Of a DNA stretch of 64,000 nucleotides, positions 9,790 through 53,870 are shown piece after piece. Source of the DNA: Candidatus Woesearchaeota archaeon. Lineage in GTDB: Archaea > Nanobdellota > Nanobdellia > Woesearchaeales > 21-14-0-10-32-9. The stretch is taken from NCBI GenBank assembly GCA_020854775.1, contig JAHKLZ010000025.1, positions 1 to 64,000 on the forward strand, read 5' to 3'. Position numbers and translations under genes: made by a program. The number at the start of each line of letters is the position of its first letter. The stretch's first letter is position 1. Under the pieces are notes generated by a model. The model worked only from the letters and a program-made list of their open reading frames with translations. It did not search any database and had not been told where the DNA came from.

Positions 9790-9918
9790 TACACCATTAT
9801 TCTCACACAAAAAACCCTAAAAGGATTTGAACATGCACAAAAACCCCAAAAAGTTTTGGCACCCCTCACCAAGGTTCTCGAAGCACGAAAACCCTTAAAA
9901 CACGAAAATACAAAAGAA

Positions 9919-53501: not shown

Positions 53502-53589
53502 TAAATAATAAGAAACAACGTTCTTATTTAATATTTTTGAAGACAATGGACAAATTTTAAAAACCACGAAAGAACCCCTTTAAAAGACT

Positions 53590-53664
53590 GAACCTGTAGC
53601 GTAGCCTGGATAGCGCGATTGCCTCCTAAGCAATAGGTCGAGGGTTCGAATCCCTCCAGGTTCG
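53590..53664 (+). tRNA. tRNA-Arg (CCT)
   Basis: Acceptor GAACCTG/CAGGTTC, anticodon stem ATTGC/GCAAT with loop CTCCTAA (anticodon CCT, Arg AGG codon), T arm GAGGG-TTCGAAT-CCCTC, discriminator G, CCA not encoded. The 3' end (last 11 bases) is the first unit of a tandem repeat that continues downstream. Confidence 0.96.
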
Positions 53665-53870
53665 TTAGAAACTGGAGGCTTACAAATAACACATTTGGAT
53701 TGTCTCCAGGTTCGTTAGAAACTGGAGGCTTACAAATAACACATTTGGATTGTCTCCAGGTTCGTTAGAAACTGGAGGCTTACAAATAACACATTTGCAT
53801 TGTCTCCAGGTTCGTTAGAAACTGGAGGTCTCTTATTACAAAATAAGATTATCTCCAAGTTCGTTAGACC
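53654..53870 (+). repeat. 50-bp tandem repeat derived from the tRNA-Arg 3' end
   Basis: Units start at 53654 (inside tRNA-Arg), 53704, 53754, 53804 and, degenerate, 53853. Each begins with 25 bases CTCCAGGTTCG-TTAGAAACTGGAGG, in which the first 11 are the tRNA 3' end and CTCCAG/CTGGAG form a hairpin. The 25-base remainder is almost identical in units 1-3 (CAAAT-AACAC-ATTTG hairpin; one G to C in unit 3). In unit 4 it is a different sequence that forms another hairpin, TCTTATT-ACAA-AATAAGA. The rest of the gap to 53966 is AT-rich. Confidence 0.9.

Follow-up and report, generated by a model that had tools for sequence, protein, structure and literature searches.

The tandem array behind a tRNA-Arg(CCT) gene of a Candidatus Woesearchaeota archaeon most probably consists of copies of a tiny non-coding mobile element, which adds about 36 bases (arm plus core) per insertion beside a duplicated stretch of its target, a reading to which we give a probability of roughly three in four. 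Combining a survey of tRNA loci with pattern searches and covariance model searches, we found an element family with a covarying structure, a duplicated target and an arm specific to each target, occurring at unrelated genes, with empty sites and varying copy number in relatives. Members of the family occur throughout this class of archaea, where they sit at the ends of tRNAs and the starts of genes. The window, that is, the whole stretch analysed, comprises 64,000 nucleotides of contig JAHKLZ010000025.1, and we refer to the genome it belongs to as the source genome (other genomes and individual loci carry the prefixes G and L).

Anatomy of the array behind tRNA-Arg(CCT)

The host gene lies intact on the forward strand, with limits of 53590–53664 by Rfam and 53589–53665 by ARAGORN, and tRNAs were the sole matches of the Rfam scan. 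An earlier note, made from the letters alone, had described a 25-base unit present four times exactly, followed by a worn fifth copy. This array is confirmed: the 25-mer CTCCAGGTTCGTTAGAAACTGGAGG occurs exactly at 53654, 53704, 53754 and 53804, the worn copy CTCCAAGTTCGTTAGAcc begins at 53853, and Tandem Repeats Finder reports 53654–53828 with a score of 343 and 99% matches.

We parse the array, all on the forward strand, into copies of a target (T), each followed by an arm and a core. The functional target copy T0, CTCCAGGTTCGTTA (53654–53667), opens with the last 11 bases of the gene (tRNA positions 63–73) and continues with TTA; the arm of unit 1, GAAACTGGAG (53668–53677), repeats the start of T in inverted orientation, and the core of unit 1, GCTT-ACAAATaacacATTTGG-ATTGT (53678–53703), scores 57.8 and 55 bits with the two covariance models described below, R1 and R2. 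Target copy, arm and core recur in unit 2 (53704–53753), identical to unit 1, and in unit 3 (53754–53803), which carries one core substitution. Unit 4 (53804–53852) is 49 bases long, shares the arm of units 1–3, as expected from their common target, and has a core of its own, GTCT-CTTATTacaaAATAAG-ATTAT, scoring 26.7 bits with R1 and 21.2 bits with R2. A distal worn target copy, CTCCAAGTTCGTTAGA (53853–53868), closes the array and would be the second copy, T1, of the oldest insertion.

As had been noticed before, the interval hairpins are nearly alike in units 1–3 and replaced in unit 4, where a different 7-bp hairpin stands, and the downstream half of unit 1 can indeed pair with the tRNA's own 3′ strand. 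The 25-base unit itself holds as a repeat, but the conserved hairpin, which the earlier note had placed within it, lies outside the 25-mer: the partner of the arm GAAACTGGAG (53668–53677) is CTCCAGGTTC in the unit that follows, with the core enclosed between them, and it is this pairing that covaries between loci. The array strand folds with a z-score of −7.2 relative to dinucleotide shuffles, with none of 200 shuffles as good.

With its own core and worn distal target, unit 4 would represent the oldest insertion in the array. A later insertion with another core may then have entered between unit 4 and the tRNA and multiplied in tandem to give units 1–3; tandem slippage explains the identity of units 1 and 2 equally well. 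An archaeal tRNA intron was considered and set aside. The bulge–helix–bulge (BHB) motif of such introns has two 3-nt bulges, 4 bp apart, inside the tRNA; here the consensus has one 2 × 3 internal loop and lies outside an intact tRNA.

A shared core and an arm that follows the target

Each copy follows the plan T0–arm–core–T1, in which the arm (about 11 bases) and the core (about 26 bases) are near-constant in length and T ranges from about 12 to 43 bases, plus two longer outliers. The arm repeats roughly the first 11 bases of T in inverted form, so that each copy, at whichever gene, forms with its target a double-stem hairpin of about 47 bases. The core has the form GGYTT-hairpin-WTTRT, with G-Y-U-U and W-U-U-R-U around a variable hairpin, and its closing pairs are a G-C pair, a conserved G-U wobble (17 of 20) and a Y-R pair (C-G in 14, U-A in 6). 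The wobble is kept on one strand, which is therefore the folding strand. The inner stem covaries. Over the whole structure of these 20 elements, 88% of cells pair compared to 41–55% when the partner is slid, 14 of 18 pairs are changed on both sides, and none of 500 shuffles attains the covariation score.

In a table of 32 elements, partly picked from loci with clear anatomy, the arm forms 8.5–8.7 of 11 pairs with its own target compared to 5.86 (s.d. 0.23) in permutations (maximum of 6.75 in 2,000), and T0 and T1 match at 9 or more of 11 positions in 30 of the 32. Mismatches are frequent at the sixth and seventh pairs, and the arm is thus not always a clean copy of T. T0 is the working gene edge in every case examined. 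At the start of an AMP-phosphorylase gene in G138 and G119, the arm has kept its match to T0 (by eye in G119) while T1 has diverged, which indicates that the arm belongs with the functional copy.

This anatomy could also have a purely mutational origin, in which replication template switching at tRNA and start-codon sequences acts with no mobile element at all. A single switch predicts T0–arm–T1 exactly, template switching is known to create, maintain and repair hairpins (PMC8794818), and no recombinase family among those examined is common to all carriers. However, switching within a locus cannot supply a core shared by unrelated loci, whereas unrelated loci and families have the conserved core of about 26 bases (GGYTT/WTTRT) in common, and exact copies of it turn up at genes unrelated to each other, which weakens this account to the point where we consider it improbable. 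The exact core pattern, GGCTTGAAAAT-N-ATTTTCATTGTC, gave nine matches, most of them in the same anatomy, in 6 of 353 genomes; read backwards it gave none in the 353 genomes, and the exact core had no match in viruses. Because exact copies are this rare, the evidence for recent movement is thin.

At several loci (L402, L401, L406, L410, L391 and others) we observed a motif of the type GAGCAAAGCGAA or GAGCATAGTGAGA just before the arm, inside the duplicated target, which resembles a GCGAAGC-type mini-hairpin; a near variant of it had no match in the window.

Distribution, empty sites and copy number

Inserts of the same kind lie 3′ of tRNA-Arg(TCT), Leu(TAA) and Cys in the source genome, and other structured inserts lie 3′ of tRNA Gly(GCC), Ser(GGA) and Ala; in each case the tRNA 3′ end is present a second time and delimits the insert. 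Among the 136 tRNAs of five genomes, 25 are followed within 300 bases by a duplicate of their 3′ end (2–3 of the 25 being artefacts of a similar neighbouring tRNA or, in G042, of one tRNA called twice), compared to 1 of 136 for a mid-tRNA control (p = 2.6 × 10−7). The covariance model R1, built from seven inserts, matches in 51 of 118 relatives at E ≤ 0.5, with the strong matches at tRNA 3′ ends and other gene edges. Most of the strong matches within the same order (E < 1 × 10−4) fall at tRNA 3′ ends (Arg, Thr, Ile, Ser); others lie at the starts of protein genes or at one tRNA-Leu 5′ end, antisense to the gene.

A second model, R2, built from 20 elements, was searched against 378 genomes of the class and, at E ≤ 0.001, matches in 45 of them, other orders included. 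Of its 22 matches outside the model-building set, 7 show a target duplication at p < 0.01, and the remainder are mostly in AT-rich start-codon regions, where the duplication test is weak, or may be chance matches. A loose core pattern searched over all genomes returned chance matches only and was reused as a negative control: none of 235 such matches in bacteria and viruses had a target duplication of at least 11/12, compared to 6 of 9 in this class.

The spread of targets also bears on whether the array is a functional RNA, in which tRNA-like minihelices (acceptor and T arm, lacking the D and anticodon arms) would be cut by RNase Z into small RNAs or would control tRNA maturation, two uses that the earlier note had raised. 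The unit fits tRNA numbering (GAAACTG(1–7)-GAGGC(49–53)-TT...ATT-GTCTC(61–65)-CAGGTTC(66–72)-G73, with TTA as spacer), its stems covary, the fold is very stable and, as in a switch, the arm has two possible partners, the tRNA and its own copy. Yet the element can form no tRNA minihelix where it lies antisense, at the start of protein genes or at the 5′ end of a tRNA, the 3′ copies decay while the tRNA remains intact, and relatives carry other inserts or none at tRNA-Arg(CCT). We find this reading unlikely, and the antisense copies at protein gene starts leave both the small-RNA and the tRNA-processing versions unsupported as a general explanation. A dedicated tRNA minihelix gene was likewise dropped as a general explanation, given the element copies at start codons.

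An array common to all strains, which the earlier note had named as counting against its own reading, is not what the relatives show: at the same tRNA-Arg(CCT) gene, G003, G006, G001 and G008 have other inserts, and G009 and G053 have none. The exact 24-mer had no match outside the source genome in our collection scans. At the orthologous gene in G003 (L025) and G006 (L027), we observed a similar arm (AGAAACTGGA in G003) with another core type (GAACAAAGTGACC-like), and a single site seems able to exchange one core for another.

Direct comparative evidence of insertion and serial growth comes from the start codon of an AMP-phosphorylase-like gene (MKLKIKDMDIATGG), compared in 25 relatives of one family. 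Most of these have an empty site, where the same upstream gene ends, at its stop codon, a few bases short of the ATG, whereas G019 carries one unit, G101 and G205 carry two and G181 at least three. In G181 (L479), read by eye, the duplicated start and the element seem to be in frame with the gene (MKLKIKDNEKPKVFQAFDFEIYSKKMKLKIKD...), and the element may form an N-terminal extension of the AMP-phosphorylase-like protein. Serial insertion of a tiny element, as first suggested for the array, is thus supported: the element turns up again at further tRNAs and loci, its target is duplicated, some sites are empty and copy number differs. The tRNA is one kind of target among others rather than the element's source.

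Further insert families lie at tRNA ends. Three tRNA trailers share a hairpin, GGATTTGAACATG..CAAAAA-loop-TTTTTGGCACCTCTCA, that begins with the reverse complement of the T arm: those of tRNA-Phe in the window (9791–9875), of Gly(GCC) (L053) and of Gly(TCC) (L056). Another insert, GGTCCYGAAAC-loop-GTTGAGGATAT, a hairpin with tandem G-A pairs, is found at Ala in the source genome (L070) and at Ser and Leu in G001 (L327, L329), with the same target-duplication plan and arms matching the tRNA. A third family has a conserved AGGGCGTYAACGGGCGTACTGGTT between duplicated tRNA 3′ ends at Ser(GGA) in the source genome (L063) and at Arg and Val in G001 (L028, L321), with no target-matching arm, and in G042 both tRNA-Gln and tRNA-Ile (L366, L355) are followed by a longer insert, GATTCGTGAGACTTCCGRTAGGAATGTCTCACTTRGTCGCCATTGATCAAACTTGGCAAGTTTGG.

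Movement and comparison with known systems

An insertion would add the arm and the core hairpin beside T, giving T0–arm–core–T1, in which T0 would stay the working edge (tRNA 3′ end, tRNA 5′ end or start codon) and T1 would decay. The arm may be made at or after insertion, with T0 copied backwards by snap-back or template switch. The conserved G-U wobble and the variable target length suggest a single-stranded intermediate that would fold on the core strand, and the varying target lengths are a poor fit to a transposase with a fixed stagger.

We searched for an enzyme that could move the element. Cas1 integrase (PF01867) was absent from all 10 element-bearing genomes searched, and the source genome had no match to Y1 transposase (PF01797) and no reverse transcriptase, so that the latter was rejected as the mover. 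Y1 is present in 11 of 16 genomes with the element compared to 3 of 12 without (p = 0.054), and 20 regions around Y1 (IS200-type) genes had no R2 match at E < 0.1; an IS200/REP parent was rejected on the absence of Y1 from the source genome and of the element near Y1 genes. Among the families covered by the parent-transposon search in the source genome (Y1, reverse transcriptase and integrase), only integrases were present. IS200-type transposase, reverse transcriptase and tyrosine integrase are each absent from some element-bearing genomes, and none of the recombinase families examined is common to all of them.

The seven tyrosine integrase matches in the source genome, together with the role of tRNA 3′ ends as classic attachment sites (PMC3293823), would fit att-site scars left by integrase elements that use these ends. 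We regard this as very improbable: no integrase was found in the carriers G101 (96% complete) and G042 (84%), start codons are among the targets, and the structured arm and core of near-constant length, about 36 bases, are unlike random scars.

Going beyond insertion as such, we tentatively propose a class-wide group of mobile elements of about 36 bases that may rebuild their outer stem from each target they enter, a transposition with target-templated ends that would need neither Cas1, Y1 transposase nor a host reverse transcriptase; we see this as a serious possibility, though short of a probable one. If true, the element would rank with the smallest cellular mobile elements described, and none of the standard transposition schemes predicts ends that are copied from the target. 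It would offer a natural, countable system for how DNA copying creates hairpins and keeps them paired, and would account for many odd structured tRNA trailers and start-codon leaders in these archaea, which are otherwise open to being mistaken for regulatory RNAs. The literature searched contained no description of such elements in these archaea.

Several known systems share part of this anatomy. At the ends of REP and IS200–IS605 elements, a 5′ guide complementary to the junction sequence precedes a hairpin, a similar layout of guide and hairpin, but here the target is duplicated, the source genome has no Y1 and the regions searched around Y1 genes lack the element. CRISPR and casposon arrays share the regular repeat–spacer look and polarised growth beside a tRNA; here, however, the repeat is the target itself, spacers 1–3 are near-identical and palindromic, and the ten carriers searched lack Cas1, and we rejected a CRISPR-like array, as the earlier note had.

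The closest kinds are MITEs, Rickettsia palindromes and mitochondrial GC clusters. MITEs are likewise short, non-coding, palindromic, multi-locus and flanked by a duplicated target; they are defined by element-owned terminal inverted repeats shared between loci and by a target duplication of fixed length set by the transposase. Here only about 36 bases are inserted, the outer inverted repeat comes from the local target and the inner core alone is shared, the duplication varies (12–43 bases and the two outliers), and the families searched gave no parent transposon. Rickettsia palindromic elements are also palindromic repeats at or in genes of small genomes, but at about 150 bp they carry their own palindrome (PMC10969869), whereas the stems here correspond to the individual target, and T is present twice. 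Mitochondrial GC clusters and double-hairpin elements are very small mobile hairpins of about the size of our element, the yeast GC42 being 42 nt long with a two-base (AG) target duplication and an unsettled mode of movement (PMC4478555); the sections of that source drawn on here describe no target-copied arm, and as with the Rickettsia elements it is by anatomy and by their description in the literature that we set them apart from the archaeal element, whose arm follows each target.
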